The notes under the pieces were generated by a model. That model was not told the DNA's origin and did not search any database. It saw only the letters and a program-made list of their open reading frames with translations. Positions 25,808-61,275 of a DNA stretch of 64,000 bases are shown here, piece after piece. The position numbers and the translations under genes were made by a program. Origin of the DNA: Cherax quadricarinatus (Eukaryota; Arthropoda; Malacostraca; Decapoda; Parastacidae); NCBI RefSeq assembly GCF_038502225.1, contig NC_091378.1, positions 5,905,669 to 5,969,668 on the forward strand, read 5' to 3'. Positions within the stretch are counted from its first letter, which is position 1. Each line of letters opens with the position of its first letter.

Positions 25808-25855
25808 TTTGTATTGGACCGATGAAGCCACTGTGTGGCGAAACGTTTCCTCAAA
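25808..25855 (+). ncRNA. Candidate hammerhead ribozyme, 3' strand interrupted
   Basis: Core CCGATGA at 25819-25825 (U4 changed to C), extra A, stem II GCCAC/GTGGC at 25827-25839, GAAAC, then GTT. The 3' strand of stem I is cut by the SINE at 25856. Confidence 0.5.
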
Positions 25856-26014
25856 TTATTTTTATTATTAAAATCAGAGGGAAGCGCTAAACCCGTAGGA
25901 TTATACAGCGCATGTGAGGGGGGAGGATGGAAGGTAATTAGGCTCAATGCAGGGAACCGGAGCACAGATCCAATTCCCTAGATCAAGAGCCCCTCACCCG
26001 CGTCCCATGAGAGG
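25856..26014 (-). mobile_element. SINE insertion with 13-bp target-site duplication
   Basis: The body contains GGGAAGCGCTAAACCCGTAG and GGATTATACAGCGC and has an AT-rich tail on the left, so it is inserted in minus orientation. It is flanked by identical ACGTTTCCTCAAA at 25843-25855 and 26015-26027. Confidence 0.82.
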
Positions 26015-26087
26015 ACGTTTCCTCAAAGACTACCGTATGCTGCTCAAGTGTCCCATTCACACTGGCCTTGAGTTTTGCGACTCATTC

Positions 26088-26160
26088 GCCACTGGTCCAA
26101 ACCCCACCCGTTCCCTGGTTTGTTTACAATCGTTTTATTACGATTTCGAGAGTCACAGGA
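26088..26160 (+). mobile_element. Fragment of the tRNA-derived SINE tail
   Basis: TTTGTTTACAATCG then TTTTATTACGATTTCGAGAG matches the tail of the copies at 7989-8107 and 20836-20978. The tRNA head is decayed. Confidence 0.7.
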
Positions 26161-26417
26161 GAAAGAAACTTATCAAGACCAGTTAACGGTCCAGATCGGA
26201 CCGAAACGTCGTGTTTCGTTCCCCGATATCCGAGTTTTTTGTGTATTTCAGGAATGGTTACTGTGCCTTATTCAGAATGTATTACTGTGCACTTGGCCTG
26301 GTTGAAAGTCATGTTGCACGTCCCGACCACAGTGCCAACCTGTCCGGAACACACTCAGTCATCAAATCTACTACGAATCTTGTTTTTAGAAGGGGTGGAG
26401 AGGCAAGCCAGTGGAAA

Positions 26418-26800
26418 GTCTCATTGCAGGGGAGTCCCAGCAGTGAGAGGAACCCGTACATCACTGTACCGGAGTCCCAGCAGTGAGAGGAACCCGTACA
26501 TCACTGTACCGGAGTCCCAACAGTGAGAGGAACCCGTACATCACTGTACCGGAGTCCCAGCAGTGAGAGGAACCCGTACATCACTGTACCGGAGTCCCAA
26601 CAGTGAGAGGAACCCGTACATCACTGTACCGAGTCTCAACAGTGAGAGGAACCCGTACATCACTGTACAGGAGACCCAACAGTGAGAAGAACCCGTACAT
26701 CACTGTACCGGAGTCCCTATAGTGAGAGGAACCCGTACATCACCGTACCGAGTCCCAACAATGAGAGGAACCCGTACATCACTGTACAAGAGTCTCCCAG
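26418..26800. repeat. Minisatellite, 40-bp unit, about 10 copies
   Basis: Unit GGAGTCCCAGCAGTGAGAGG plus AACCCGTACATCACTGTACC, with small deletions in later copies. Confidence 0.94.
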
Positions 26801-26990
26801 GAGACACAGGAACCCATACATCATTCACTGCATACAACGCGGGAAACCATACATAATTACAAGGTAAGTGAACAATCATCAGTGACCGGAAGAGCAGGTA
26901 TAATTACGCTAAACAGGCCAGACACAGCTGCAAATAAAAGCCATTATAATATAGAATAAAAAGGCACAATACCGTGTCTGGAACAATACA
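26801..26990. other. Unique stretch
   Basis: AT-rich; no gene, repeat or RNA recognised. Confidence 0.5.
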
Positions 26991-27033
26991 CAAATATGTT
27001 GGGTAAAAGGACACAAGTGCAACTAATGTGAGA

Positions 27034-27085
27034 TTTTATTGTGGCAACGTTTCGCTCTCCATGAGCTTTGTCAAGCTGTACGGCT
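27034..27085 (-). ncRNA. Candidate hammerhead-like motif (U3-A8 variant)
   Basis: Minus strand: TTGACAA core, extra A, stem II GCTC/GAGC with loop ATGGA, then GAAAC GTT. Stem I is weak here. Confidence 0.5.
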
Positions 27086-27507
27086 TGTCGGTAATTCTAC
27101 CAACGTTAATAGAATACACAAATAACCCAAACACAGGAGAATGACACTTATAACGACGTTTCGGTCCGATTTGGATAATTAACTAGTTAGTTAGACTTGT
27201 CTAGCATGGGCCAGTAGGCCTGAGGGACTGACCACCTCAAATACTTTTTCTCCAAGGTTGGACTGCTAACATTATTTCACTACTACACCTGCTGCCTATG
27301 TATTTGACTGACGAAGCCTTCGTTCTTAAGTGGATGTGACTTGGCTTAGTATGGGCCAGTAGTGCAAAAAGACACTAATGTACTGTTCAGGACAGTTACT
27401 GAAGGAAACGTTTTGCCACGAGTGACTTTAGTCCTAATACAGAGAAAACTAAGAAAACGGGTATATGTATATATAGTGGCAGCAGTCAGGTGGAGTGTCG
27501 CGTGGGT

Positions 27508-27697
27508 GGTAGTAGTAGCAGTGGTAGTAGTAGTAGTAGTAGCAGTGGTAGTAGTAGTAGTAGTAGCAGTGGTAGTAGTAGTAGTAGTAGCAGTGGTAGT
27601 AGTAGTAGTAGCAGTGGTAGTAGTAGTAGCAGTGGTAGTAGTAGTAGCAGTAGTAGTAGCAGTAGTAGTAGCAGTAGTAGTAGCAGTAGTAGTAGTA
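27508..27697. repeat. AGT-type trinucleotide microsatellite
   Basis: (AGT)n interrupted regularly by CAGTGG, inside the Penelope remnant. Confidence 0.95.
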
Positions 27698-27759
27698 ATG
27701 TGAGACGGGTTGGGTTAGAAAAGGACCTGTTGACATCATGTTACAGCAGTCTCCAGAAT

Positions 27760-28172
27760 GGATAATATCCTGTTTAATAGCAATTTTGAGATACTGTAAC
27801 TACCGGACTTCTGATGGATAGTGTTACCGAGAGCAATTTGGGCAGCTTGTATACACTTCTGCCGTCTTAAATCACTAGTTTAGCCTCAATGAATTTCATG
27901 ACGTGTCCAACATCGTCCCTATGTTGAACACACCCGTTTTTACGGTCATCATTTCTGCAAGCATTTTTGTGTTCGGTGACCCTAATGTCTAGAGATCTGA
28001 CGGTTTCCCCCACATATGCTTTGTCACATCCCCCACATGGTATAGTGTATATTTCTGCACTTGTGCCAGAATCATGGTTGGGTTTTTGTATTGGGTTCCT
28101 AATAGTAGTTGAGCCGAAATATATTTTAGCCAGTTTTCTGTCAAACATTTTTGAAACGTTAGTTACAACGTT
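27760..28172 (-). pseudogene. Penelope-like element GIY-YIG endonuclease domain (decayed)
   Basis: Minus-strand frame with FDRKLAKIYFGSTTIRNP, then SAEIYTIPCGGCDKAYVGET, then R-x-TEHKNACR and HRDDVGHVMKF. This is the GIY-YIG domain with YTIPC and YVGET strands and the EHK helix. A stop follows EAKLVI; the rest (DGRSVYK... to about 27760) continues past it with a frame change. This nuclease nicks target DNA during retrotransposition. Confidence 0.85.
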
Positions 28173-28202
28173 GAAGATTGGGACACTTACGCAACATATG
28201 GG

Positions 28203-28257
28203 AATCTTTATCGAGGAAACGTTTCGCCACACAGTGGCTTCATTAGTCCAATACAAA
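28203..28257 (-). ncRNA. Candidate hammerhead motif (G5 changed)
   Basis: Minus strand: GGA, CTAATGA, extra A, GCCAC-TGT-GTGGC, GAAAC GTT, TCCTCGATAAAGAT. The G5-to-A change should abolish activity. Inverted partner at 28310-28368. Confidence 0.55.
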
Positions 28258-28309
28258 GCAGGAAGGTGTAAGGAGAGGAGTAGTTTGAGGTAATCAGTCC
28301 CTCAGCCTA

Positions 28310-28368
28310 CTTTGTATTGGACTGATGAAGCCACTGTGTGACGAAACCGTTTCCTCAATAAAGATTCC
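28310..28368 (+). ncRNA. Candidate hammerhead motif (degraded)
   Basis: TATTGGA, CTGATGA, extra A, GCCAC-TGT-GTGAC, GAAACC GTT, TCCTCAATAAAG. One stem II change and one extra C in stem III. It sits about 50 bp from its inverted copy. Confidence 0.55.
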
Positions 28369-28576
28369 CATATGCTGCATAAGTCTCTCAATCTTCAACT
28401 AGTCGATTTTTAAACCATTTATCACACATTTACAACGTTGCTGACCGGTAAAACGACATAACTTGGAGGCTTTTCTTCAACTTAATAGGTGTTGCTCTTA
28501 CTGAGGATTCGTGTCGCACGTTTCCTGTAGTCACGTATAAAGTGTAGGGGAAAGTGTAGAGAACGAAAAGAATGGG

Positions 28577-28930: not shown

Positions 28931-29355
28931 TTCGGCAGTGCGTCTGTCAGGAACGGGAAGTGAGAATTAGGTTAGCACTATGACAAAAATCTGTACATAA
29001 GTCTTTTTCCACTACTGGCCCATACTAGGCACGTCCAAGTCGCACCCACTTAAGGAAGGCTTCTTCAGTCAAATACAGGAGAGCAGGTGTAGTAGTGAAA
29101 TAATGATGTAATCAGTCCAACCTTGGAGAAAAAGCGTTTGAGGTGGTCAGTCTCTCAGGCCTACTGGCCCATCCATGCTAAATAGATCCAACTAACTAGT
29201 TAATGATCCGAGTCGGACCGAAACGTCGTCATAAGTCATTCTCCTGTGTTTGGGTTATTTGTGTATTGTATTAACCTTGGTAGATTTACCGCCAATATGT
29301 TAGGTAAAAGGACACAAGAGCAACTAATGTGACATTTTGTGGCAACGTTTCGTGC

Positions 29356-29461
<106 letters not shown>

Positions 29462-29464
29462 ACA

Positions 29465-30093: not shown

Positions 30094-30097
<4 letters not shown>

Positions 30098-30151
<54 letters not shown>

Positions 30152-31413: not shown

Positions 31414-31470
31414 GTCTATTAGACTGAAGAAGCATGTTGTGCGGGCGAAACGTTTCGGCAATAAAGATAC
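31414..31470 (+). ncRNA. Candidate hammerhead motif (N7 = A)
   Basis: ATTAGA, core CTGAAGA at 31424-31430, extra A, weak stem II starting GC and ending GC, GAAAC GTT, then TCGGCAATAAAGAT. It lies about 60 bp after GACTGAGGGACTGATCACC. Confidence 0.55.
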
Positions 31471-32030: not shown

Positions 32031-32031
<1 letters not shown>

Positions 32032-37489: not shown

Positions 37490-38029
37490 AAGCCACTTTC
37501 CCTAAAGTGGCGACTATTAGGCAAAAGGAAATCGAGAGCCACTTTACCCTAAAGTGGCTAAAGTGGCCACTAGTGGGGAAGAGGATATCGAGAGCCACTT
37601 TCCCCTAAAGTGGCCACCAGTGGGGAAGAGAGGATATCGAGAGCCACTTTCCCCTAAAGTGGCCACCAGTGGGGAAGAGAGGATATCGAGAGCCACTTTC
37701 CCCTAAAGTGGCCACCAGTGGGGAAGAGAGGATATCGAGAGCCACTTTCCCCTAAAGTGGCCACCAGTGGGGAAGAGAGGATATCGAGAGCCAATTTCCC
37801 CTAAAGTGGCCACCAGTGGGGAAGAGGGGATATCGAGAGCCACTTTCCCCTAAAGTAGCCACCAGTGGGGAAGAGAGGATATCGAGAGCCACTTTCCCCT
37901 AAAGTGGCCACCAGTGGGGAAGAGAGGATATCGAGAGCCACTTTCCCCTAAAGTGGCCACCAGTGGAGAAGAGAGGATATCGAGAGCCACTTTCCCCTAA
38001 AGTGGCCACCAGTGGAGAAGAGAGGATAT
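37490..38029. repeat. Minisatellite, 49-bp unit, left part
   Basis: Unit GGCCACCAGTGGGGAAGAGA plus GGATATCGAGAGCC plus ACTTTCCCCTAAAGT, about 10 copies. It is interrupted at 38030 and resumes at 41207. Confidence 0.95.
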
Positions 38030-39649
38030 GAAAGTTAAGACACATGTGCAACATCTGGATATCTTTATTGTAGACGTTTCGCCATCCAGTGGCTTTATCA
38101 ATACAGATTCTAGGACATAATAGGAAGACAGTAGAACTATATACAAAAGATGAGGTAATCAGTCCCTCGGCCTTGGAGTTAGTGTTCACAGCATCGTGGT
38201 GGAGGAGAGTCTGGAGCAAAGGCAAGAAGACTGGCGTTTTTATAGGCGTCAGTGGATGGGACGGGCAGCAGACGAGGGCAGTCACTGGTAGGCGGGATTC
38301 CCCAGTGGAAGTAGGTCCTTCCCAAAGAGATGGGTTAGTTGCAGCAGCCGTGAAGAAGGTCTTGTAGATGTCCTCCGAACCAAGATTCCATGATGTTGCA
38401 GTGTCTGACAAGTTGTGCAAGAAAGGTATAAAATACCGACAATATGAAAGTTAAGACACATGTGCAACATCTGGATATCTTTATTGTAGACGTTTCGCCA
38501 TCCAGTGGCTTTATCAATACAGATTCTAGGACATAATAGGAAGACAGTAGAACTATATACAAAAGATGAGGTAATCAGTCCCTCGGCCTTGGAGTTAGTG
38601 TTCACAGCATCGTGGTGGAGGAGAGTCTGGAGCAAAGGCAAGAAGACTGGCGTTTTTATAGGCGTCAGTGGATGGGACGGGCAGCAGACGAGGGCAGTCA
38701 CTGGTAGGCGGGATTCCCCAGTGGAAGTAGGTCCTTCCAAAAGAGATGGGTTAGTTGCAGCAGCCGTGAAGAAGGTCTTGTAGATGTCCTCCGAACCAAG
38801 ATTCCATGATGTTGCAGTGTCTGACAAGTTGTGCAAGAAAGGTATAAAATACCGACAATATGAAAGTTAAGACACATGTGCAACATCTGGATATCTTTAT
38901 TGTAGACGTTTCGCCATCCAGTGGCTTTATCAATACAGATTCTAGGACATAATAGGAAGACAGTAGAACTATATACAAAAGATGAGGTAATCAGTCCCTC
39001 GGCCTTGGAGTTAGTGTTCACAGCATCGTGGTGGAGGAGAGTCTGGAGCAAAGGCAAGAAGACTGGCGTTTTTATAGGCGTCAGTGGATGGGACGGGCAG
39101 CAGACGAGGGCAGTCACTGGTAGGCGGGATTCCCCAGTGGAAGTAGGTCCTTCCCAAAGAGATGGGTTAGTTGCAGCAGCCGTGAAGAAGGTCTTGTAGA
39201 TGTCCTCCGAACCAAGATTCCATGATGTTGCAGTGTCTGACAAGTTGTGCAAGAAAGGTATAAAATACCGACAATATGAAAGTTAAGACACATGTGCAAC
39301 ATCTGGATATCTTTATTAGTAGACGTTTCGCCATCCAGTGGCTTTATCAATACAGATTCTAGGACATAATAGGAAGACAGTAGAACTATATACAAAAGAT
39401 GAGGTAATCAGTCCCTCGGCCTTGGAGTTAGTGTTCACAGCATCGTGGTGGAGGAGAGTCTGGAGCAAAGGCAAGAAGACTGGCGTTTTTATAGGCGTCA
39501 GTGGATGGGACGGGCAGCAGACGAGGGCAGTCACTGGTAGGCGGGATTCCCCAGTGGAAGTAGGTCCTTCCCAAAGAGATGGGTTAGTTGCAGCAGCCGT
39601 GAAGAAGGTCTTGTAGATGTCCTCCGAACCAAGATTCCATGATGTTGCA
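38030..39649 (-). mobile_element. 416-bp retrozyme-like monomers, four direct copies (left half of palindrome)
   Basis: Units start at 38030, 38446, 38862 and 39278; the last is truncated at 39649. Read on the minus strand each carries a TATAAAA box, the GAGGGACTGATTACCTCA segment and a hammerhead-like motif (near 38057-38114, 38473-38530, 38889-38946 and 39305-39363). Copies are almost identical: I see one substitution in unit 2 and one inserted base in unit 4. Minus-strand frames of up to 184 codons span each unit but shift at the unit boundary, because 416 is not a multiple of three, and match nothing I recognise. Metazoan retrozymes are known as tandem repeats of a few hundred bases with type I hammerheads; this is the closest fit. 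Confidence 0.72.
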
Positions 39650-39840
39650 TGGGGAATCCCGCCTACCAGTGACTGCCCTCGTCTGCTGCCCGTCCCATCC
39701 ACTGACGCCTATAAAAACGCCAGTCTTCTTGCCTTTGCTCCAGACTCTCCTCCACCACGATGCTGTGAACACTAACTCCAAGGCCGAGGGACTGATTACC
39801 TCATCTTTTGTATATAGTTCTACTGTCTTCCTATTATGTC

Positions 39841-39897
39841 CTAGAATCTGTATTGATAAAGCCACTGGATGGCGAAACGTCTACAATAAAGATATCC
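39841..39897 (+). ncRNA. Candidate type I hammerhead ribozyme, U3-A8 variant (array monomer)
   Basis: Stem I TGTA (39849-39852) with TACA (39882-39885). Core TTGATAA (39853-39859), extra A, stem II GCCA/TGGC with loop CTGGA (39861-39873), GAAA (39874-39877), stem III C-G-T, cleavage base C at 39881. Core bases U4, G5, A6 and A9 are kept; C3 and G8 are both changed to give a U-A pair. The other seven copies in the array carry the same motif. Confidence 0.65.
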
Positions 39898-40125
39898 AGA
39901 TGTTGCACATGTGTCTTAACTTTCATATTGTCGGTATTTTATACCTTTCTTGCACAACTTGTCAGACACTGCAACATCATGGAATCTTGGTTCGGAGGAC
40001 ATCTACAAGACCTTCTTCACGGCTGCTGCAACTAACCCATCTCTTTGGGAAGGACCTACTTCCACTGGGGAATCCCGCCTACCAGTGACTGCCCTCGTCT
40101 GCTGCCCGTCCCATCCACTGACGCC

Positions 40126-40132
40126 TATAAAA
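40126..40132 (+). promoter_or_regulatory. TATA-box-like element of the 416-bp monomer
   Basis: TATAAAA preceded by CTGACGCC. The same spot in the diverged long copy reads TATATAAG (46208-46215), so a TATA function is kept although the bases differ. It occurs in every monomer. Confidence 0.5.
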
Positions 40133-41206
40133 ACGCCAGTCTTCTTGCCTTTGCTCCAGACTCTCCTCCACCACGATGCTGTGAACACTAACTCCAAGGC
40201 CGAGGGACTGATTACCTCATCTTTTGTATATAGTTCTACTGTCTTCCTATTATGTCCTAGAATCTGTATTGATAAAGCCACTGGATGGCGAAACGTCTAC
40301 AATAAAGATATCCAGATGTTGCACATGTGTCTTAACTTTCATATTGTCGGTATTTTATACCTTTCTTGCACAACTTGTCAGACACTGCAACATCATGGAA
40401 TCTTGGTTCGGAGGACATCTACAAGACCTTCTTCACGGCTGCTGCAACTAACCCATCTCTTTGGGAAGGACCTACTTCCACTGGGGAATCCCGCCTACCA
40501 GTGACTGCCCTCGTCTGCTGCCCGTCCCATCCACTGACGCCTATAAAAAACGCCAGTCTTCTTGCCTTTGCTCCAGACTCTCCTCCACCACGATGCTGTG
40601 AACACTAACTCCAAGGCCGAGGGACTGATTACCTCATCTTTTGTATATAGTTCTACTGTCTTCCTATTATGTCCTAGAATCTGTATTGATAAAGCCACTG
40701 GATGGCGAAACGTCCACAATAAAGATATCCAGATGTTGCACATGTGTCTTAACTTTCATATTGTCGGTATTTTATACCTTTCTTGCACAACTTGTCAGAC
40801 ACTGCAACATCATGGAATCTTGGTTCAGAGGACATCTACAAGACCTTCTTCACGGCTGCTGCAACTAACCCATCTCTTTGGGAAGGACCTACTTCCACTG
40901 GGGAATCCCGCCTACCAGTGACTGCCCTCGTCTGCTGCCCGTCCCATCCACTGACGCCTATAAAAACGCCAGTCTTCTTGCCTTTGCTCCAGACTCTCCT
41001 CCACCACGATGCTGTGAACACTAACTCCAAGGCCGAGGGACTGATTACCTCATCTTTTGTATATAGTTCTACTGTCTTCCTATTATGTCCTAGAATCTGT
41101 ATTGATAAAGCCACTGGATGGCGAAACGTCTACAATAAAGATATCCAGATGTTGCACATGTGTCTTAACTTTCATATTGTCGGTATTTTATACCTTTCTT
41201 GCACAA

Positions 41207-43015: not shown

Positions 43016-43163
43016 TAATGCTTGTAAATAATTTCGCCTGTTTGCAAATTGTTAAACGTGTGAACAATGTTGAACCCTAAACACAAATGAGAGTATGTTA
43101 CGATGGAAATAAATGGTATAAAATACCGACACAATGGAAATATAAACACATATGCAGTATAAT

Positions 43164-43230
43164 GTGATCCTTTATTGACTACGTTTCGCCCACACAGTGG
43201 GCTTTTTCAAGTCACAAACAGAACTACCTG
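43164..43230 (-). ncRNA. Candidate hammerhead motif, U3-A8 variant (left arm)
   Basis: Exact inverted copy of 43258-43331: stem II GCCCAC/GTGGGC, GAAAC GTA, stem I TGAC/GTCA. Confidence 0.6.
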
Positions 43231-43257: not shown

Positions 43258-43331
43258 TCAGGTAGTTCTGTTTGTGACTTGAAAAAGCCCACTGTGTGGG
43301 CGAAACGTAGTCAATAAAGGATCACATTATA
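43258..43331 (+). ncRNA. Candidate hammerhead motif, U3-A8 variant (right arm)
   Basis: TGAC (43275-43278), core TTGAAAA (43279-43285), extra A, GCCCAC-TGT-GTGGGC (43287-43301), GAAA, C-G-T, cleavage base A43109-type site at 43309, then GTCA (43310-43313) pairing with TGAC. The two arms could also pair with each other into a long hairpin. Confidence 0.62.
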
Positions 43332-43413: not shown

Positions 43414-43466
43414 CTTTGTATTGGACTGATGAAGCCACTGTGTGGCGAAACGTTTCCTGAATAAAG
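43414..43466 (+). ncRNA. Candidate hammerhead ribozyme with canonical core
   Basis: Stem I CTTTGTATTGGA with TCC-TG-AATA-AAG. Core CTGATGA (43426-43432), extra A, stem II GCCAC-TGT-GTGGC (43434-43446), GAAA (43447-43450), C-G-T, cleavage base T43454. All core positions of a hammerhead are present. This and 43822-43875 are the best-conserved copies. Confidence 0.68.
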
Positions 43467-43821
43467 ATTTCCATATGCTGCATAAGTGTCTCAATCTTCA
43501 ACTTGTCGGTTTTTCAAACCATTCATCACTACTGCATATGTGTTTATATTTCCCTCGAGAGTATGTTACGTTGAACTCTGTGTTGAACTTTAGTGAGAGA
43601 CTAAGTTTCGCAAACGTTCGGAACTTAGTCTCGCATTTTTTTTAAGTTAGTGTAAGTTACGTAAGTGGCAACATTAATAACCATAATAATGGTAGAATTA
43701 CCGTCAAAATGTTAGGTAAATGTACACAGATGCAACTGATGTGGCATTTTATTGCTGCAACGTTTCGCTCTTGATAACATGAATAGGGACTGATTACTTC
43801 AAACACCTTCTGACCTTCATT

Positions 43822-43875
43822 TCTCTGTATTGGACTGATGAAGCCACTGTGTGGCGAAACGTTTCCACAAGAAAG
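43822..43875 (+). ncRNA. Candidate hammerhead ribozyme with canonical core
   Basis: TATTGGA, CTGATGA (43834-43840), extra A, GCCAC-TGT-GTGGC, GAAAC GTT, TCCACAAGAAAGAT. The distal part of stem I is weaker than in 43414-43466. Confidence 0.66.
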
Positions 43876-44208: not shown

Positions 44209-44262
44209 GTATCTTTATTGAGGAAACGTTTCACCACACAGTGGCTTCATCAGTCTATACGA
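44209..44262 (-). ncRNA. Candidate hammerhead ribozyme with canonical core
   Basis: Minus strand: TATAGA, CTGATGA, extra A, GCCAC-TGT-GTGGT (G-U closing pair), GAAAC GTT, TCCTCAATAAAGAT. Confidence 0.62.
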
Positions 44263-44381: not shown

Positions 44382-44435
44382 ATCTTTATTGTAGACGTTT
44401 CGCCATCCAGTGGCTTTATCAATACAAATTCCAGG
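44382..44435 (-). ncRNA. Hammerhead-like motif of the 416-bp family
   Basis: Minus strand copy of the array motif (TTGATAA core, GCCACTGGATGGC, GAAAC GTC). A partial sense copy, lacking the core, lies at 44500-44545. Confidence 0.6.
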
Positions 44436-44823: not shown

Positions 44824-44873
44824 CATATTTATTAGAAAACGTTTCGGTCCTGGGACCTTGATCACTTCTAACA
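44824..44873 (-). ncRNA. Candidate hammerhead ribozyme, G3-C8 variant (left arm)
   Basis: Inverted copy of 45450-45500 in the left arm of the Penelope remnant. Confidence 0.66.
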
Positions 44874-45084
44874 TACAGAGGTAGAAAGACATTATATATA
44901 TAGGCGGAGAGTGAGATGTGACGCACGTGACCTGAGGAAAGTCATAAGAACATAAGAATGGAGGAACACTGTAGAAGGCCTACCATGCGAGGCAGGTCCT
45001 TATCAAAACAACCTCTGCCTATGATGAGGACCAGTAGACGATGAAATCATGTGACTCCTGTGTTGTTGGGTTGGTGCTGCTTAA

Positions 45085-45350
45085 GTATCATGTATGCCAA
45101 TGTTTTTGAAATTTTGTAGTTTCCAGTGTTGCGTTCTATAGTGTCGGTGACGGTGATTAGTGAGGCTTCTAGGCACCGTCGGCATCTGAGGTCTGGTTCG
45201 GTGAGAACGAGTTGTGCCTAGTTCCAGTTCATCAAATGCCCCGTGGAGTCTCTGTGGAGGACACAGGCGTACCTTACATCGTCTCTGTTAGAGGCATTTC
45301 GATGCTCATTCAGGCGGACTGCAAGATCTCTGCCTGTCTCGCCTACACTA
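45085..45350 (-). pseudogene. Penelope-like GIY-YIG endonuclease fragment
   Basis: Minus-strand frame: SVGETGRDLAVRLNEHRNA, then YACVLHRDSTGHLMNWN, a stop, then LVLTEPDLRCRRCLEASLI. It starts at the YIG strand, so the GIY strand is missing; one internal stop. Confidence 0.82.
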
Positions 45351-45449
45351 CAGTGTTCCTCCATTCTTATGTTCTTATGACTTTCCTCAGGTCACGTGCG
45401 TCACATCTCACTCTCCGCCTATATATATAATGTCTTTCTACCTCTGTAT

Positions 45450-45500
45450 GTTAGAAGTGATCAAGGTCCCAGGACCGAAACGTTTTCTAATAAATATGTT
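45450..45500 (+). ncRNA. Candidate hammerhead ribozyme, G3-C8 variant (right arm)
   Basis: Stem I TTAGAA (45451-45456) with TTCTAA (45485-45490), six perfect pairs. Core GTGATCA (45457-45463), extra A, stem II GGTCC/GGACC (45465-45469, 45472-45476), GAAA (45477-45480), C-G-T, cleavage base T45484. Confidence 0.7.
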
Positions 45501-45561
45501 ATAGTGTTTGCTTACGTGTCTTTCTAAACCAACTTGTCGGTATTTATTACCAAGGTTTATA

Positions 45562-45620
45562 CCATCTTTATTTTGAAACGTTTCGCCTACACAGTAGACT
45601 TCTTCAGTCAGATACAGAGG
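45562..45620 (-). ncRNA. Candidate hammerhead ribozyme (N7 = A)
   Basis: Minus strand: ATCTGA, CTGAAGA, extra A, GTCTAC-TGT-GTAGGC (one G-U pair), GAAAC GTT, TCAAAATAAAGAT. Confidence 0.62.
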
Positions 45621-45959: not shown

Positions 45960-46800
45960 GTGTAAAATACCGACAAGATGTAAGTTAAGACACTTGTGCA
46001 ACATCTGGTTATCTTTATTGTAGACGTTTCGCCATCCAACTTGTCAGACGCTGCAACATCATGGAATCTTGGTTCAGAGGACATCTACATGACCTTCACG
46101 GCTGCTACAACTAACCCATCAATTTGGGAAGGACCTACTTCCACTGGTGAATCCCGCCTACCACTGACTATGCCCTCGTCTGCTACACGTCCCTACTCAC
46201 TGACACCTATATAAGCGCCAGTCTCCTTGCCTCCTTGCATGATCCTGCTCCTAACCCTATTTACAAATAACCTTGGATTCTCCGAGAGGTACCTTCTATG
46301 ACAGGTACCATTCTCTGATCCACGTTCGCCTTACCCTTTGGGTTAAGACATGGCTCAGTTCTACACTCCTCTCTAGCTCTAAACGTCGCATGTCCCTTAT
46401 TCCCGCTCACCCCACCGGAGTCCCAACAGAAGAGCCTGAATTTCTCTTCTCAATATCTGTCCCACGATCGCCTCGCTGCTGGGTTAAGCCCTGGCTCTAT
46501 TTCTACGACTAAGAACACTCCTCTCCAGCACTATTCTTCGTCTGTCCCGTGTTCCCCGCTCATCCCATTTGGGATCTTACCTGAACTTTCGTTCTTTCGT
46601 TCGCCTCTGCTTCAGAATCTCTACAACCACGGTGCTCTAAACACCACCTCCAAGGCTGAGGGACTGATTACCTCATCTTTTGTATATAGTTCTTCAGTTT
46701 TCTTATGTCCAAAGAATCTGTATAAAGCCACTGGATGGCGAAACGTCTACAATAAAGATACCCAGATGTTGCACATGTGTCTCAACTTTCATCTTCATGT
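45960..46800 (+). mobile_element. Diverged long copy related to the 416-bp monomer
   Basis: Bases 46031-46220 and 46640-46795 match the two ends of the monomer (AACATCATGGAATCTTGG, TGGGAAGGACCTACTTCCAC, GGCTGAGGGACTGATTACC, GGATGGCGAAACGTCTAC). About 420 bp in between is absent from the monomer and contains internally repetitive TGGGTTAAG...CTGGCTC blocks. The hammerhead at 46713-46770 has lost part of its core. A minus-strand stub lies at 45960-46033. The 416-bp unit looks like an internally deleted derivative. Confidence 0.68.
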
Positions 46801-49084: not shown

Positions 49085-52000
49085 AGTTCCCTGTTGTTCC
49101 CAAGTGTTACAACTGTGTCTCACTGTTGTTCCCAAGTGGTACAACTGTGTCTCACTGTTGCTCCCAAGTGTTACATCTGTCTCTCACTGTTGTTCCCAAG
49201 TGTTACAACTGTGTCTCACTGTTGCTCCCAAGTGTTACAACTGTCTCACTGTTGTTCCCAAGTGTTACAACTGTCTCACTGTTGTTCCCAAGTGTTACAA
49301 CTGTGTCTCACTGTTGCTCCCAAGTGTTACATCTGTCTCTCACTGTTGTTCCCAAGTGTTACATCTGTCTCACTGTTGTTCCCAAGTGTTACACCTGTGT
49401 CTCACTGTTGCTCCCAAGTGTTACATCTGTCTCTCACTGTTGTTCCCAAGTGGTACAACTGTGTCTCACTGTTGTTCCCAAGTGGTACAACTGTGTCTCA
49501 CTGTTGCTCCCAAGTGTTACATCTGTCTCTCACTGTTGTTCCCAAGTGTTACATCTGTCTCACTGTTGTTCCCAAGTGTTACACCTGTGTCTCACTGTTG
49601 CTCCCAAGTGTTACATCTGTGTCTCACTGTTGTTCCCAAGTGTTACATCTGTCTCACTGTTGTTCCCAAGTGTTACATCTGTCTCACTGCTCTTCCCAAG
49701 TGTTACAACTGTGTCTCACTGTTGTTTCCAAGTGTTACATCTGTCTCACTGTTGTTCCCAAGTGTTACAACTGTGTCTCACTGTTGTTCCCAAGTGTTAC
49801 AACTGTGTCTCACTGTTGTTTCCAAGTGTTACAACTGTGTCTCACTCTTGTTCCCAAGTGTTACAACTGTCTCACTGTTGTTCCCAAGTGTTACAACTGT
49901 GTCTCACTGTTGTTCCCAAGTGTTACATCTGTCTCACTGTTGCTCCCAAGTGTTACATCTGTGTCTCACTGTTGTTCCCAAGTGTTACATCTGTCTCACT
50001 GTTGTTCCCAAGTGTTACATCTGTCTCACTGCTCTTCCCAAGTGTTACAACTGTGTCTCACTGTTGTTTCCAAGTGTTACATCTGTCTCACTGTTGTTCC
50101 CAAGTGTTACAACTGTGTCTCACTGTTGTTCCCAAGTGTTACATCTGTCTCACTGTTGTTCCCAAGTGTTACAACTGTGTCTCACTGTTGTTCCCAAGTG
50201 TTACATCTGTCTCACTGTTGTTCCCAAGTGTTACAACTGTGTCTCACTGTTGTTCCCAAGTGTTACATCTGTCTCACTGTTGTTCCCAAGTGTTACAACT
50301 GTGTCACACTGTTGTTCCCAAGTGTTACATCTGTCTCACTGTTGTTCCCAAGTGTTACAACTGTGTCTCACTGTTGTTTCCAAGTGTTACAACTGTGTCT
50401 CACTGTTGTTCCCAAGTGTTACAACTGTGTCTCACTGTTGTTCCCAAGTGTTACATCTGTCTCACTGTTGTTCCCAAGTGTTACAACTGTGTCTCACTGT
50501 TGTTCCCAAGTGTTACATCTGTCTCACTGTTGTTCCCAAGTGTTACAACTGTGTCTCACTGTTGTTCCCAAGTGTTACAACTGTGTCTCACTGTTGTTTC
50601 CAAGTGTTACAACTGTGTCTCACTCTTGTTCCCAAGTGTTACAACTGTCTCACTCTTGTTCCCAAGTGTTACAACTGTCTCACTCTTGTTCCCAAGTGTT
50701 ACAACTGTGTCTCACTGTTGTTCCCAAGTGTTACAACTGTGTCTCACTGTTGTTCCCAAGTGTTACAACTGTGTCTCACTGTTGTTCCCAAGTGTTACAA
50801 CTGTGTCTCACTGTTGTTCCCAAGTGTTACAACTGTGTCTCACTGTTGTTCCCAAGTGTTACATCTGTCTCACTGTTGTTCCCAAGTGTTACATCTGTCT
50901 CACTGTTGTTCCCAAGTGTTACATCTGTCTCACTGTTGTTCCCAAGTGTTACATCTGTCTCACTGTTGTTCCCAAGTGTTACATCTGTCTCTCTGTTGTT
51001 CCCAAGTGTTACATCTGTCTCACTGTTGTTCCCAAGTATTACATCTGTCTCACTGTTGTTCCCACGTGTTACATCTGTCTCACTGTTGTTCCCAAGTGTT
51101 ACAACTGTGTCTCACTGTTGTTCCCAAGTGTTACATCTGTCTCACTGTTGTTCCCAAGTGTTACATCTGTCTCACTGTTGTTCCCAAGTGTTACAACTGT
51201 CTCACTGTTGATCCCAAGTGTTACGTCTGTCTCACTGTTGTTCCCAAGTGTTACGTCTGTCTCCCTGTTGTTCCCAAGTGTTACATCTGTCTAACTGTTG
51301 TTCCCAAGTGTTACAACTGTCTCACTGTTGATCCCAAGTGTTACATCTGTCTCACTGTTGTTCCCAAGTGTTACATCTGTCTCACTGTTGTTCCAAAGTG
51401 TTACATCTGTCTCACTGTTGTTCCCAAGTGTTACAACTGTGTCTCACTGTTGTTCCCAAGTGTTACATCTGTCTCACTGTTGTTCCCAAGTGTTACATCT
51501 GTCTCACCGTTCCCAAGTGTTACATCTGTCTCACTGTTGTTCTCAAGTGTTACAACTGTCTCACTGTTGATCCCAAGTGTTACATCTGTCTGACTGTTGT
51601 TCCCAAGTGTTACATCTGTCTCACTGTTGTTCCCAAGTGTTACATCTGTCTGACTGTTGTTCCCAAGTGTTACATCTGTCTCACTGTTGTTCCCAAGTGT
51701 TACATCTGTCTCACTGTTGTTCCCAAGTGTTACATCTGTCTCACTGTTGTTCCCAAGTGTTACATCTGTCTCACTGTTGTTCCCAAGTGTTACATCTGTC
51801 TGACTGTTGTTCCCAAGTGTTACATCTGTCTGACTGTTGTTCCCACGTGTTACATCTGTCTCACTGTTGTTCCCAAGTGTTACATCTGTCTCACTGATGT
51901 TCCCAAGTGTTACATCTGTCTGACTGTTGTTCCCAAGTGTTACATCTGTCTCACTGTTGTTCCCAAGTGTTACATCTGTCTCACTGTTGTTCCCAAGTGT

Positions 52001-55000
52001 TACAACTGTGTCTCACTGTTGTTCCGAAGTGTTACATCTGTCTCACTGTTGTTCCCAAGTGTTACATCTGTCTCACTGTTGTTCCCAAGTGTTACAACTG
52101 TGTCTCACTGTTGTTCCCAAGTGTTACATCTGTCTCACTGTTGTTCCCAAGTGTTACAACAGTCTCACTGTTGATCCCAAGTGTTACATCTGTCTCACTG
52201 TTGATCCCAAGTGTTACATCTGCCTCACTGTTGTTCCCAAGTGTTACATCTGTCTCACTGTTGTTCCCAAGTGTTACAACAGTCTCACTGTTGATCCCAA
52301 GTGTTACATCTGTCTCACTGTTGTTCCCAAGTGTTACATCTGTCTCACTGTTGATCCCAAGTGTTACATCTGTCTCACTGTTGTTCCCAAGTGTTACATC
52401 TGTCTCACTGTTGTTCCCAAGTGTTACATCTGTCTCACTGTTGTTCCCAAGTGTTACATCTGTCTCACTGTTGTTCCCAAGTGTTACATCTGTCTCACTG
52501 TTGTTCCCACGTGTTACATCTGTCTCACTGTTGTTCCCAAGTGTTACATCTGTCTCACTGTTGTTCCCAAGTGTTACATCTGTCTCACTGTTGTTCCCAA
52601 GTGTTACATCTGTCTCACTGTTGTTCCCAAGTGTTACATCTGTCTCACTGTTGTTCCCAAGTGTTACAACTGTGTCTCACTGTTGTTCCCAAGTGTTACA
52701 ACTGTGTCTCACTGTTGTTCCCAAGTGTTACAACTGTGTCTCACTGTTGTTCCCAAGTGTTACAACTGTGTCTCACTGTTGTTCCCAAGTGTTACAACTG
52801 TCTCACTCTTGTTCCCAAGTGTTACAACTGTCTCACTCTTGTTCCCAAGTGTTACATCTGTCTCACTGTTGTTCCCAAGTGTTACAACTGTGTCTCACTG
52901 TTGCTCCCAAGTGTTACATCTGTGTCTCACTGTTGTTCCCGTGTTACAACTGTGTCTCACTGTTGTTTCCAAGTGTTACATCTGTCTCACTGTTGTTTCC
53001 AAGTGTTACATCTGTCTCACTGTTGATCCCAAGTGTTACAACTGTGTCTCACTGTTGTTCCCAGGTGTTACAACTGTGTCTCACTGTTGTTCCAACTGTG
53101 TCTCACTGTTGTTTCCAAGTGTTACATCTGTCTCACTGTTGTTCCCAAGTGTTACATCTGTCTCACTGTTGTTCCCAAGTGCTACATCTGTCTCACTGTT
53201 GTTCCCAAGTGTTACATCTGTCTCACTGTTGATCCCAAGTGTTACAACTGTGTCTCACTGTTGTTCCCAGGTGTTACAACTGTGTCTCACTGTTGTTCCA
53301 ACTGTGTCTCACTGTTGTTTCCAAGTGTTACATCTGTCTCACTGTTGTTCCCAAGTGTTACATCTGTCTCACTGTTGTTCCCAAGTGTTACATCTGTCTC
53401 ACTGTTGTTCCCAAGTGTTACATCTGTCTCACTGTTGATCCCAAGTGTTACAACTGTGTCTCACTGTTCCCAGGTGTTACAACTGTGTCTCACTGTTGTT
53501 CCCAGGTGTTACATCTGTCTCACTGTTGTTCCCAAGTGTTACATCTGTCTCACTGTTGTTCCCAAGTGTTACATCTGTCTCACTGTTGTTCCCAAGTGTT
53601 ACATCTGTCTCACTGTTGTTCCCAAGTGTTACATCTGTCTCACTGTTGTTCCCAAGTGTTACATCTGTCTCACTGTTGTTCCCAAGTGTTACATCTATCT
53701 CACTGTTGTTCCCAAGTGTTACATCTGTCTCACTGTTGTTCCCAAGTGTTACATCTGTCTCACTGTTGTTCCCAAGTGTTACATCTGTCTCACTGTTGTT
53801 CCCAAGTGTTACATCTGTCTCTCTGTTGTTCCCAAGTGTTACATCTGTCTCACTGTTGTTCCCAAGTGTTACATCTGTCTCACTGTTGTTCCCACGTGTT
53901 ACATCTGTCTCACTGTTGTTCCCAAGTGTTACAACTGTGTCTCACTGTTGTTCCCAAGTGTTACATCTGTCTCACTGTTGTTCCCAAGTGTTACATCTGT
54001 CTCACTGTTGTTCCCAAGTGTTACAACTGTCTCACTGTTGATCCCAAGTGTTACGTCTGTCTCACTGTTGTTCCCAAGTGTTACGTCTGTCTCAATGTTG
54101 TTCCCAAGTGTTACATCTGTCTCACTGTTGTTCCCAAGTGTTACAACTGTCTCACTGTTGATCCCAAGTGTTACATCTGTCTCACTGTTGTTCCCAAGTG
54201 TTACATCTGTCTCACTGTTGTTCCCAAGTGTTACATCTGTCTCACTGTTGTTCCCAAGTGTTACAACTGTGTCTCACTGTTGTTCCCAAGTGTTACATCT
54301 GTCTCACTGTTGTTCCCAAGTGTTACATCTGTCTCACTGTTGTTCCCAAGTGTTACATCTGTCTCACTGTTGTTCTCAAGTGTTACAACTGTCTCACTGT
54401 TGATCCCAAGTGTTACATCTGTCTGACTGTTGTTCCCAAGTGTTACATCTGTCTCACTGTTGTTCCCAAGTGTTACATCTGTCTGACTGTTGTTCCCAAG
54501 TGTTACATCTGTCTCACTGTTGTTCCCAAGTGTTACATCTGTCTCACTGTTGTTCCCAAGTGTTACATCTGTCTCACTGTTGTTCCCAAGTGTTACATCT
54601 GTCTGACTGTTGTTCCCACGTGTTACATCTGTCTGACTGTTGTTCCCAAGTGTTACATCTGTCTCACTGTTGTTCCCAAGTGTTACATCTGTCTGACTGT
54701 TGTTCCCAAGTGTTACATCTGTCTCACTGTTGTTCCCAAGTGTTACATCTGTCTCACTGTTGTTCCCAAGTGTTACAACTGTGTCTCACTGTTGTTCCGA
54801 AGTGTTACATCTGTCTCACTGTTGTTCCCAAGTGTTACATCTGTCTCACTGTTGTTCCCAAGTGTTACAACTGTGTCTCACTGTTGTTCCCAAGTGTTAC
54901 ATCTGTCTCACTGTTGTTCCCAAGTGTTACAACAGTCTCACTGTTGATCCCAAGTGTTACATCTGTCTCACTGTTGATCCCAAGTGTTACATCTGTCTCA

Positions 55001-58000
55001 CTGTTGTTCCCAAGTGTTACATCTGTCTCACTGTTGTTCCCAAGTGTTACATCTGTCTCACTGTTGTTCCCAAGTGTTACATCTGTCTCACTGTTGTTCC
55101 CAAGTGTTACATCTGTCTCACTGTTGTTCCCAAGTGTTACAACTGTGTCTCACTGTTGTTCCCAAGTGTTACATCTGTCTCACTGTTGTTCCCAAGTGTT
55201 ACAACAGTCTCACTGTTGATCCCAAGTGTTACATCTGTCTCACTGTTGTTCCCAAGTGTTACATCTGTCTCACTGTTGATCCCAAGTGTTACATCTGTCT
55301 CACTGTTGTTCCCAAGTGTTACATCTGTCTCACTGTTGTTCCCAAGTGTTACATCTGTCTCACTGTTGTTCCCAAGTGTTACATCTGTCTCACTGTTGTT
55401 CCCACGTGTTACATTTGTCTCACTGTTGTTCCCAAGTGTTACATCTGTCTCACTGTTGTTCCCAAGTGTTACATCTGTCTCACTGTTGTTCCCAAGTGTT
55501 ACATCTGTCTCACTGTTGTTCCCAAGTGTTACATCTGTCTCACTGTTGTTCCCAAGTGTTACAACTGTGTCTCACTGTTGTTTCCAAGTGTTACAACTGT
55601 GTCTCACTGTTGTTTCCAAGTGTTACAACTGTGTCTCACTCTTGTTCCCAAGTGTTACAACTGTGTCTCACTCTTGTTCCCAAGTGTTACAACTGTCTCA
55701 CTCTTGTTCCCAAGTGTTACAACTGTCTCACTCTTGTTCCCAAGTGTTACATCTGTCTCACTGTTGTTCCCAAGTGTTACAACTGTGTCTCACTGTTGCT
55801 CCCAAGTGTTACATCTGTGTCTCACTGTTGTTCCCGTGTTACAACTGTGTCTCACTGTTGTTTCCAAGTGTTACATCTGTCTCACTGTTGTTTCCAAGTG
55901 TTACATCTGTCTCACTGTTGATCCCAAGTGTTACAACTGTGTCTCACTGTTGTTCCCAGGTGTTACAACTGTGTCTCACTGTTGTTCCAACTGTGTCTCA
56001 CTGTTGTTTCCAAGTGTTACATCTGTCTCACTGTTGTTCCCAAGTGTTACATCTGTCTCACTGTTGTTCCCAAGTGTTACATCTGTCTCACTGTTGTTCC
56101 CAAGTGTTACATCTGTCTCACTGTTGTTCCCAAGTGTTACATCTGTCTCACTGTTGATCCCAAGTGTTACAACTGTGTCTCACTGTTGTTCCCAGGTGTT
56201 ACAACTGTGTCTCACTGTTGTTCCCAGGTGTTACATCTGTCTCACTGTTGTTCCCAAGTGTTACATCTGTCTCACTGTTGTTCCCAAGTGTTACATCTGT
56301 CTCACTGTTGTTCCCAAGTGTTACATCTGTCTCACTGTTGTTCCCAAGTGTTACATCTGTCTCACTGTTGTTCCCAAGTGTTACATCTGTCTCACTGTTG
56401 TTCCCAAGTGTTACATCTGTCTCACTGTTGTTCCCAAGTGTTACATCTGTCTCACTGTTGTTCCCAAGTGTTACATCTGTCTCTCTGTTGTTCCCAAGTG
56501 TTACATCTGTCTCACTGTGGTTCCCAAGTGTTACATCTGTCTCACTGTTGTTCCCACGTGTTACATCTGTCTCACTGTTGTTCCCAAGTGTTACAACTGT
56601 GTCTCACTGTTGTTCCCAAGTGTTACATCTGTCTCACTGTTGTTCCCAAGTGTTACATCTGTCTCACTGTTGTTCCCAAGTGTTACATCTGTCTCACTGT
56701 TGTTCCCAAGTGTTACAACTGTCTCACTGTTGATCCCAAGTGTTACGTCTGTCTCACTGTTGTTCCCAAGTGTTACATCTGTCTCACTGTTGTTCCCAAG
56801 TGTTACAACTGTCTCACTGTTGATCCCAAGTGTTACATCTGTCTCACTGTTGTTCCCAAGTGTTACATCTGTCTCACTGTTGTTCCCAAGTGTTACATCT
56901 GTCTCACTGTTGTTCCCAAGTGTTACAACTGTGTCTCACTGTTGTTCCCAAGTGTTACATCTGTCTCACTGTTGTTCCCAAGTGTTACATCTGTCTCACT
57001 GTTTTCCCCAAGTGTTACATCTGTCTCACTGTTGTTCCCAAGTGTTACAACTGTCTCACTGTTGATCCCAAGTGTTACATCTGTCTGACTGTTGTTCCCA
57101 AGTGTTACATCTGTCTCACTGTTGTTCCCAAGTGTTACATCTGTCTGACTGTTGTTCCCAAGTGTTACATCTGTCTCACTGTTGTTCCCAAGTGTTACAT
57201 CTGTCTCACTGTTGTTCCCAAGTGTTACATCTGTCTCACTGTTGTTCCCAAGTGTTACATCTGTCTCACTGTTGTTCCCAAGTGTTACATCTGTCTGACT
57301 GTTGTTCCCAAGTGTTACATCTGTCTGACTGTTGTTCCCACGTGTTACATCTGTCTGACTGTTGTTCCCAAGTGTTACATCTGTCTCACTGTTGTTCCCA
57401 AGTGTTACATCTGTCTGACTGTTGTTCCCAAGTGTTACATCTGTCTCACTGTTGTTCCCAAGTGTTACATCTGTCTCACTGTTGTTCCCAAGTGTTACAT
57501 CTATCTCACTGTTGTTCCCAAGTGTTACAACTGTGTCTCACTGTTGTTCCCAAGTGTTACATCTATCTCACTGTTGTTCCCAAGTGTTACAACTGTGTCT
57601 CACTGTTGTTCCCAAGTGTTACATCTGTCTCACTGTTGTTCCCAAGTGTTACAACAGTCTCACTGTTGATCCCAAGTGTTACATCTGTCTCACTGTTGTT
57701 CCCAAGTGTTACATCTGTCTCACTGTTGATCCCAAGTGTTACATCTGTCTCACTGTTGTTCCCAAGTGTTACATCTGTCTCACTGTTGTTCCCAAGTGTT
57801 ACATCTGTCTCACTGTTGTTCCCAAGTGTTACATCTGTCTCACTGTTGTTCCCAAGTGTTACATCTGTCTCACTGTTGTTCCCAAGTGTTACAACTGTGT
57901 CTCACTGTTGTTCCCAAGTGTTACATCTGTCTCACTGTTGTTCCCAAGTGTTACAACAGTCTCACTGTTGATCCCAAGTGTTACATCTGTCTCACTGTTG

Positions 58001-59457
58001 TTCCCAAGTGTTACATCTGTCTCACTGTTGATCCCAAGTGTTACATCTGTCTCACTGTTGTTCCCAAGTGTTACATCTGTCTCACTGTTGTTCCCAAGTG
58101 TTACATCTGTCTCACTGTTGTTCCCAAGTGTTACATCTGTCTCACTGTTGTTCCCACGTGTTACATCTGTCTCACTGTTGTTCCCAAGTGTTACATCTGT
58201 CTCACTGTTGTTCCCAAGTGTTACATCTGTCTCACTGTTGTTCCCAAGTGTTACATCTGTCTCACTGTTGTTCCCAAGTGTTACATCTGTCTCACTGTTG
58301 TTCCCAAGTGTTACATCTGTCTCACTGTTGTTCCCAAGTGTTACATCTGTCTCACTGTTGTTCCCAAGTGTTACAACTGTGTCTCACTGTTGTTCCCAAG
58401 TGTTACATCTGTCTCACTGTTGTTCCCAAGTGTTACATCTGTCTCACTGTTGTTCCCAAGTGTTACATCTGTCTCACTGTTGTTCCCAAGTGTTACATCT
58501 GTCTCACTGTTGTTCCCAAGTGTTACATCTGTCTCACTGTTGTTCCCAAGTGTTACAACTGTGTCTCACTGTTGTTCCCAAGTGTTACATCTGTCTCACT
58601 GTTGTTCCCAAGTGTTACATCTGTCTCACTGTTGTTCCCAAGTGTTACATCTGTCTCACTGTTGATCCCAAGTGTTACATCTGTCTGACTGTTGTTCCCA
58701 AGTGTTACATCTGTCTGACTGTTGTTCACAAGTGTTACATCTGTCTCACTGTTGTTCCCAAGTGTTACATCTGTCTCACTGTTGTTCCCAAGTGTTACAT
58801 CTGTCTCACTGTTGTTCCCAAGTGTTACATCTGTCTCACTGTTGTTCCCAAGTGTTACATCTGTCTCACTGTTGTTCCCAAGTGTTACATCTGTCTCACT
58901 GTTGTTCCCAAGTGTTACATCTGTCTCACTGTTGTTCCCAAGTGTTACATCTGTCTCACTGTTGTTCCCAAGTGTTACATCTCTCTCACTGTTGTTCCCA
59001 AGTGTTACATCTGTCTCACTGTTGTTCCCAAGTGTTACATCTCTCTCACTGTTGTTCCCAAGTGTTACATCTGTCTCACTGTTGTTCCCAAGTGTTACAT
59101 CTGTCTCACTGTTGTTCAAGTGTTACATCTGTCTCACTGTTGTTCAAGTGTTACATCTGTCTCACTGTTGTTCCCAAGTGTTACAACTGTGTCTCACTGT
59201 TGTTCCCAAGTGTTACATCTGTCTCACTCTTGTTCCCAAGTGTTACATCTGTCTCACTGTTGTTCAAGTGTTACATCTGTCTCACTGTTGTTCAAGTGTT
59301 ACATCTGTCTCACTGTTGTTCAAGTGTTACATCTGTCTCACTGTTGTTCAAGTGTTACATCTGTCTCACTGTTGTTCAAGTGTTACATCTGTCTCACTGT
59401 TGTTCAAGTGTTACATCTGTCTCACTGTTGTTCAAGTGTTACATCTGTCTCACTGTT
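49085..59457. repeat. Minisatellite, 30/32-bp unit, about 345 copies (10.4 kb)
   Basis: Units TGTTGTTCCCAAGTGTTACA plus TCTGTCTCAC (30) or ACTGTGTCTCAC (32). Near the right end a deleted 27-bp form (GTTGTTCAAGTG) takes over. The 30-bp form keeps each frame open; the 32-bp form shifts it, but no frame contains a stop in most units, hence very long spurious frames. Confidence 0.97.
50900..59000. repeat. Higher-order repeat inside the 30-bp array, period about 2.7-2.9 kb
   Basis: Rare variants recur in order: CTGTCTCTCTGTTG at about 50990, 53819 and 56480; GTTCTCAAGTG at about 51540 and 54371; GTTCCGAAGTG at about 52021 and 54795; the CCCGTGTTACAACTG unit at about 52938 and 55832. Confidence 0.82.
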
Positions 59458-59744
59458 CTCTCTCATTATACTCATAACAAAAGTTCTCACAACTCTCCTT
59501 CCCAAACTTCTAACTTTTCTATCACTCTTAAAGATCTTTCTCACCCTCACATTAAACACTAATTTATTATATACTTTTTTAATGTTTTTTGTTTGTATTT
59601 TTTTTATTCCGGTTATAAAGTATCACGGATAATTGGTTCTCCAATTAACCGTATTTTTTTTATTTCAGTTATAGATTTTAGAGGATTTTTTTCCGGTTAA
59701 TTCAACTACGTTTATTTTAATTACAGATGCAACTCAAGACAATG
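59458..59744. other. Unique AT-rich spacer
   Basis: No gene or repeat recognised. Confidence 0.55.
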
Positions 59745-61150
59745 GGACTGATCCCCTGAAAACTACTACGTCAAGTTTGTGGGACTGACCCCCCCTCAAA
59801 ACTACGTCAAGTTTGTGGGACTGATCCCCTCAAAACTACGTCAAGTTTGTGGGACTGATACCCTCAAAACTACTACGTCATGTTTGTGTGACTGATCCCC
59901 TCAAAACTACTACGTCAAGTTTGTGGGACTGACCCCCTCAAAACTACTACGTCAAGTTTGTGGGACTGACCCCCCTCAAAACTACGTCAAGTATGTGGGA
60001 CTGATCCCCCTTAAAACTACGTCAAGTTTGTGGGACTGATCACCCTCAAAACTACGTCAAGTTTGTGGGACTGATCCCCTCAAAACTACTACGTCAAGTT
60101 TGTGGGACTGATCCCCTCAAAACTACTACGTCAGGTTTGTGGGACTGACCCCCCTCAAAACTACGTCACGTTTGTGGGACTGACCCCCCTCAAAACTACG
60201 TCAAGTTTGTGGGACTGACCCCCCTCAAAACTACTACGTCAAGTTTGTGGGACTGACCCCCTCAAAACTACGTCAAGTTTGTGGGACTGTTCCCCTCAAA
60301 ACTACTACGCCAAGTTTGTGGGACTGATCCCCTCAAAACTACTACGTCAAGTTTGTGGGACTGACCTCCCTCAAAACTACTACGTCAAGTTTGTGGGACT
60401 GACCCCCCTCAAAACTACGTCAAGTTTGTGGGACTCATCCCCTCAAAACTACTACGTCAGGTTTGTGGAACTGACCCCCCTCAAAACTAAGTCAAGTTTG
60501 TGGGACTGACCCCCCTCAAAACTACTACGTCAAGTTTGTGGGACTGACCCCCCTCAAAACTACTACGTCAAGTTTGTGGGACTGATCCCCTCAAAACTAC
60601 TACGTCAAGTTTGTGGGACTGATCCCCTCAAAACTACTACGTCAAGTTTGTGGGACTGATCCCCCTCAAAACTACTACGTCAAGTTTGTGGGACTGATCC
60701 CCTCAAAACTACTACGTCAAGTTTGTGGGACTGACCCCCCTCAAAACTACGTCAAGTTTGTGGGACTGATCCCCTCAAAACTACTACGTCAAGTTTGTGG
60801 GACTGACCCCCCTCAAAACTACGTCAAGTTTGTTTGACTGGTCCCCCTCAAAACTACTACGTCAAGTTTGTGGGACTGACCCCCTCAAAACTACTACGTC
60901 AAGTTTGTGGGACTGACCCCCTCAAAACTACTACGTCAAGTTTGTGGGACTGACCTCCTCAAAACTACTACGTCAAGTTTGTGGGACTGACCTCCTCAAA
61001 ACTACTACGTCAAGTTTGTGGGACTGACCTCCTCAAAACTACTACGTCAAGTTTGTGGGACTGACCCCCTCAAAACTACTACGTCAGGTTTGTGGGACTG
61101 ACCCCCTCAAAACTACTACGTCAAGTTTGTGGGACTGACCCCCTCAAAAA
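59745..61150. repeat. Minisatellite, 33-37-bp unit, about 39 copies
   Basis: Unit GGGACTGATCCCCTCAAAAC plus TACTACGTCAAGTTTGT, variable in CTACTACG/CTACG. It ends at a last unit reading AGACTGAGGGACTGATCACA, directly upstream of a hammerhead-like block. Confidence 0.95.
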
Positions 61151-61214
61151 TACCACATCAAGACTGAGGGACTGATCACATAATCTTAACTTCAACATTA
61201 CGTCTCCCTCAATT

Positions 61215-61275
61215 TTAGTAACCTGTGAATTCGACTGAAGAATCCTAGTGTGTAGGTGAAAGGCTTCAGTAATAC
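61215..61275 (+). ncRNA. Decayed hammerhead-like motif
   Basis: TTCGA, CTGAAGA, extra A, TCCTA...TAGGT, GAAAG, GC, TTCAGTAATACAGAT. Core kept, stem III lost. Confidence 0.4.

Follow-up and report, generated by a model that had tools for sequence, protein, structure and literature searches.

Minimal hammerhead ribozymes are already known from Penelope-like elements (PLEs) (PMC6155905, PMC7229834). As the work of Cervera and de la Pena (2014) is cited in those papers and in PMC11167929, these hammerheads are of the minimal type I and are borne by the pseudo-LTRs (pLTRs) of the elements, and as they have no usable stem III they are presumed to act as dimers. Core bases 3 and 8 pair with each other in the active hammerhead structure (PMC2837043, PMC3088659), and the pair is familiar from structures as well as from mutants. 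For a PLE hammerhead, PMC11167929 describes that C3G or G8C alone kills cleavage and that both changes together restore it partly, that cleavage occurs only with protein added, and that in the one PLE tested insertion in vitro is independent of the ribozyme. Natural hammerheads in which C3 and G8 are jointly replaced by U3 and A8 were reported in 2011 (Perreault, PMC3088659).

The window analyzed here, a stretch of 64,000 nucleotides from Cherax quadricarinatus, contains many copies of a motif that resembles the PLE hammerheads in its pLTR-like setting, its minimal type I layout and its apparent want of a usable stem III. A strict descriptor (stem I of at least three pairs, N3-UGA-N7-N8-A9, zero or one extra base, stem II, and GAAACGUH) found 15 copies in the window vs none in 100 dinucleotide shuffles, and all 15 have stems I and II, GAAA and H17. 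A relaxed descriptor gave 22 rows and, after removal of the row at 46030 on the minus strand, which has a broken core and not a single stem I pair, 21 copies. All 21 carry GAAACGU and an additional A ahead of stem II, a count to be read with the descriptor's own demand for either CGU or a complete stem I. Near 61235, the outermost copy is degraded and has no GAAACGU. Stem III consists of ACGU only, which is self-complementary and could pair between two copies. The copies are as follows.

45449..45492, plus strand: hammerhead-like motif, G3-C8, stem I TGTTAGAA/TTCTAATA, in the inverted pLTR copy (strict descriptor)
44830..44873, minus strand: hammerhead-like motif, G3-C8, in the pLTR copy downstream of the GIY-YIG piece (strict)
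43275..43313, plus strand: motif, U3-A8, stem I TGAC/GTCA (strict)
43176..43214, minus strand: motif, U3-A8, stem I TGAC/GTCA, inverted partner of 43275..43313 (strict)
44389..44427, minus strand: motif, U3-A8, stem I TTGTA/TACAA (strict)
27044..27076, minus strand: motif, U3-A8, weak stem I (relaxed descriptor)
38026..39649, minus strand: 416-bp tandem array with four U3-A8 motifs, at 38069-38105, 38485-38521, 38901-38937 and 39319-39353
39650..41206, plus strand: opposite 416-bp tandem array with four U3-A8 motifs, at 39849-39885, 40265-40301, about 40682-40718 and 41098-41134
43423..43457, plus strand: motif, C3-G8, stem I GGA/TCC (strict)
43831..43867, plus strand: motif, C3-G8, stem I TGGA/TCCA (strict)
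45574..45610, minus strand: motif, C3-G8, stem I TGA/TCA (strict)
44222..44256, minus strand: motif, C3-G8, stem I partly mismatched (relaxed)
31421..31457, plus strand: motif, C3-G8, irregular stem II (relaxed)
25816..25850, plus strand: motif, C3-G8, base 4 changed, CCGATGA (relaxed)
28215..28249, minus strand: motif, C3-G8, base 5 changed, CTAATGA (relaxed)

The initial annotation had proposed a dispersed family of candidate type I hammerheads, with more than twenty copies sharing CUGANGA, and had likened their need for a dimer or tandem transcript to that of Penelope-type hammerheads. The four copies that it named by their stem I pairs, the stem II pairings that it listed, the extra A and ACGU are indeed present in the sequence at the positions given. 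The shared core is not: exact CUGANGA occurs in only five of the 21 copies (31447, 43447, 43856, 44232 and 45584), two further copies have C3/G8 with a damaged UGA (25840 and 28225), twelve have U3/A8 and two have G3/C8. The sequence held to be invariant is not common to the window set as a whole and is present in the C3-G8 families, genome-wide too. The search with Rfam models that had been suggested as a check gave no match reaching threshold over the whole window at gathering score, and the hammerhead models were absent among the matches up to E 10 between 25000 and 62000. Assignment to the PLE hammerheads of minimal type I is nonetheless the best reading, supported by the covariation of stem I and of bases 3 and 8 and by the PLE host described below.

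What the initial annotation overlooked is the most telling covariation, that between bases 3 and 8. These bases form a Watson-Crick pair in all 21 window copies (one broken row dropped), which is C-G in seven, U-A in twelve and G-C in two; eight of the twelve U-A copies are near-identical units of the two 416-bp arrays, and the two G-C copies are both ends of one element. A wider sample combined the window with eight loci that a search for the G3-C8 pattern had retrieved, 20 segments of 10 kb each taken at round coordinates on contigs 2-21, and 40 short loci hand-picked among 100 listed matches for stem II and for variety rather than for bases 3 and 8; two overlapping loci and 13 viral loci were excluded. 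The pattern behind the 40 loci had 2,398 matches vs 672 for its reversed control, cannot match A3, and is biased to copies in which the extra A is missing or replaced by G. The scan yielded 69 copies with 47 distinct sequences, and bases 3 and 8 are paired in 60 of the 69 and in 39 of the 47 (U-A 17, C-G 16, G-C 6), the eight unpaired distinct sequences being C-A (three), U-U (two), C-C, G-G and U-C (one each). When base 8 was redealt 20,000 times among the 47, the mean number paired was 16.9 and the maximum 32, vs 39 observed, figures that give no probability of independent events because the sequences are related. Among 14 columns the mutual information is highest for 3-8 (0.90 bit), followed by 2.2-1.2 (0.83) and 10.2-11.2 (0.82), the latter belonging to stem II, whose pairing was demanded by the scan. 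Stem I pairing was left free in the scan, and its covariation, which had been claimed from fewer copies, is borne out: 2.1-1.1 and 2.2-1.2 are each paired in 36 of the 47 sequences. The 20 pre-chosen stretches alone contributed five rows, namely two U3-A8, two G3-C8 and one, in L015, that by its appearance is a chance match. The least number of pair changes needed to explain the families is two, and the covariation at 3-8 could go back to no more than these two, passed on to many copies by descent. The U3-U8 copies occur in two stem II variants (L060, L061 and L076) and are perhaps a family without the 3-8 pair.

Patterns that required the extra A, G10.1 and GAAACGU, with stem pairing left free, were then counted in the genome assembly (3.95 Gb, 7,334 contigs). 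C3-G8 was found 121,917 times (reversed-pattern control 1), U3-A8 66,264 times (control 10), G3-C8 8,756 times (control 9), and G3 with A, G or U at base 8 1,430 times (control 24); the counts cover these four classes only and so yield no genome-wide paired fraction. One hundred listed copies of the G3-not-C8 class were sorted by stem II similarity, one C-G group being assigned from the C3-G8 genome-wide matches: 22 combine a G3-C8 family stem II with an altered base 8, 50 combine the stem II of a C-G or U-A family with that family's own base 8, and 28 are other. An exact search for the 28-base G3-C8 motif gave 6,658 occurrences, and a pattern in which 12 core positions could vary gave 6,562; among 100 listed matches of the latter, all have G at base 3 and 98 have C at base 8, and eight copies vary at the free core positions, two of them at base 8. 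On viral contigs two scans gave no match and two others gave 13 pattern matches, all without stems; the one mismatched row each from L032 and L033 in the scan of these matches was read as chance.

The C-G families fit the known PLE hammerhead kind. By a strict reading of the core the U-A and G-C families do not qualify, yet they retain the pair that the core needs, and because of this combination we class them as a new hammerhead variant. Two of the three 3-8 pair types here deviate from CUGANGA, and one extra base precedes stem II, features that would set these copies apart from the PLE hammerheads described before. The U3-A8 families share with the hammerheads of Perreault 2011 the joint replacement of C3 and G8. 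Here, however, the PLE copies number in the tens of thousands, and G3-C8, of which section 8 of that paper makes no mention, occurs as well. A limited search of the open-licence literature, with blunt search terms, found no natural G3-C8 hammerhead, and we provisionally regard the natural G3-C8 family as new.

Every unit of the 416-bp tandem arrays holds a single type I motif, as in retrozymes. The two arrays stand head to head at 39649/39650, and the same 49-bp repeat flanks both sides of 38026-41206. In contrast to the metazoan retrozymes as described in PMC7229834, the unit here is a PLE pLTR-like sequence with a tail hairpin, a U3-A8 core and a minimal motif. About 46-50 nt past the motif, (U)UGUC is followed by a short hairpin whose arms differ by family (GGUAU/AUACC, GGUUU/AAACC, GGUA/UACC and GGUU/AACC), as in these examples.

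45539..45551, plus strand: tail hairpin GGTA/TACC, preceded by TTGTC, 46 nt beyond the G3-C8 motif
43508..43520, plus strand: tail hairpin GGTTT/AAACC, 50 nt past a C3-G8 motif
43115..43127, minus strand: tail hairpin GGTAT/ATACC, 48 nt past a U3-A8 motif

The hairpin appears to resemble the stem-loop in which a PLE begins reverse transcription according to PMC11167929; it is by itself weak evidence, because 102 of the 138 TGTCGG places, phage loci included, can form a hairpin of at least three pairs. Two other arrays lie further along the window, one of 10.4 kb at 49091-59457 (about 342 copies of a 30-bp unit, open over long distances in several reading frames) and one of 1.4 kb at 59743-61175 (37-bp unit, about 39 copies). 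A separate repeat at 26161-26234 and 29178-29251 on the plus strand and at 27131-27204 on the minus strand has a GGTCC-like hairpin with GAAACGTCG / GAAACGUCG; the hairpin and GAAACGTCG are as in the hammerhead families. These three places (26203, 29220 and 27162) were excluded from the copies, as they have the hairpin and GAAACGUCG but no UGA core. The repeat is perhaps a family whose core was lost; one genomic relative, at locus L042, has CTGAAGA ahead of the same hairpin.

The host of the G3-C8 family is best seen at locus L083. There an open frame of 492 aa (361-1839, minus strand), perhaps short of full length, matches RVT_1 at E 7.3e-11 and GIY-YIG at E 0.0025, the latter under Pfam's curated cut-off, so that a reverse transcriptase and a GIY-YIG domain lie in one frame beside the repeat, for this family only. 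A G3-C8 motif (139-182, minus strand) lies 179 nt beyond the stop of the frame, and next to the frame is a partial copy in inverted orientation that bears a motif too. Inverted motif pairs at element ends are found in the window and in L082, L083 and L084, as in the repeats of PLEs. The window element has the order of L083 in broken form, with a motif at 44830-44873 (minus), an inverted motif at 45449-45492 (plus) and, between them, the following piece.

45050..45358, minus strand: end of a PLE frame (GIY-YIG region) with one stop, 96% identical to an uncharacterized Cherax quadricarinatus protein

The piece alone has no Pfam match, and its Cherax homologue has a GIY-YIG match under Pfam's curated cut-off. 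PLE domains were absent from Pfam searches of ten window frames; comparison with solved structures gave weak reverse-transcriptase matches and, for protein P0001, no sensible match. By their shared layout only, the C-G and U-A families would also belong to PLEs, a coding copy having been found for neither. In L082 (966-2555, plus strand) and L084 (515-4862, minus strand), long open frames lie between inverted G3-C8 motifs; by eye these perhaps encode gag-like zinc-knuckle and LINE-like proteins in nested insertions.

Chance matches of a short motif within repetitive DNA can be dismissed almost entirely. Taken by itself, CTGANGA shows no enrichment in the window (36 observed vs 48.9 expected), as such an origin would have it, but the shuffle result and the genome-wide reversed-pattern controls (1 to 10 vs 8,756 to 121,917 for the three paired classes) already rule it out, and the 13 viral pattern matches have no stems. 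We also think it very improbable that the hairpin, GAAACGU and flanks are a binding or priming signal for the PLE reverse transcriptase and no ribozyme at all. The tail hairpin with its varying arms, the initiation of PLE reverse transcription in such a stem-loop (PMC11167929) and the lack of an Rfam hammerhead match would fit such a signal, which would however predict neither pairing at 3-8 nor the CUGANGA core of the C-G families.

A weightier alternative, though still an unlikely one, is that the G3-C8 and perhaps the U3-A8 hammerheads are weak or dead, that the elements spread because insertion can do without cleavage, and that the 3-8 pairing descends from a few founders. In the PLE work of PMC11167929 the C3G/G8C double mutant recovers cleavage only in part and hammerhead mutations do not affect insertion in vitro, and in the listed G3-C8 copies base 8 is not visibly tighter than its neighbours, since it accounts for two of the eight that differ. 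A dead core would nevertheless not be expected to hold the 3-8 pair across the three families while stems I and II stay paired as well, and G3 without C8 is rare and resembles single changes of the paired families.

Because stem I and bases 3 and 8 covary and the host is a PLE, we consider the copies to be probably hammerhead ribozymes of minimal type I, borne by the pseudo-LTRs of several PLE families of a decapod genome, and from their sequences we infer that they cleave. Each has an open stem I, the core N3-UGA-N7-N8-A9, one extra base, stem II, GAAA, ACGU and H17, with cleavage expected 3′ of H17 in PLE or array transcripts. A single copy is at a disadvantage through its extra base, its open stem I and a stem III that has no loop. 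Since ACGU is self-complementary and loop-less, stem III would form between two copies, within a tandem transcript or across two RNAs, or a PLE protein would help; cleavage would most likely take place in such a dimer or with that protein. The 3-8 position is kept as a pair rather than as a sequence, with C-G, U-A and G-C families coexisting in one genome, and selection on cleavage presumably caused the covariation. A further step, which is a serious possibility just short of what we would call probable, is that the G3-C8 hammerhead, with its core pair fully swapped, is naturally active in a recently spreading PLE, that the three families form a natural compensatory series for the tertiary core pair, and that family-specific stem I keeps the dimers of co-resident families apart.

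The joint change of bases 3 and 8 between families suggests, on sequence grounds, that the fold matters in nature, which has seemingly run the compensatory 3-8 experiment in very many copies, the G-C swap included. If the families cleave, the 'invariant' CUGANGA should be loosened in search models, which overlook these copies. Should cleavage fail, a PLE would be spreading with no functional ribozyme, and this would bear on the purpose of the PLE hammerhead.
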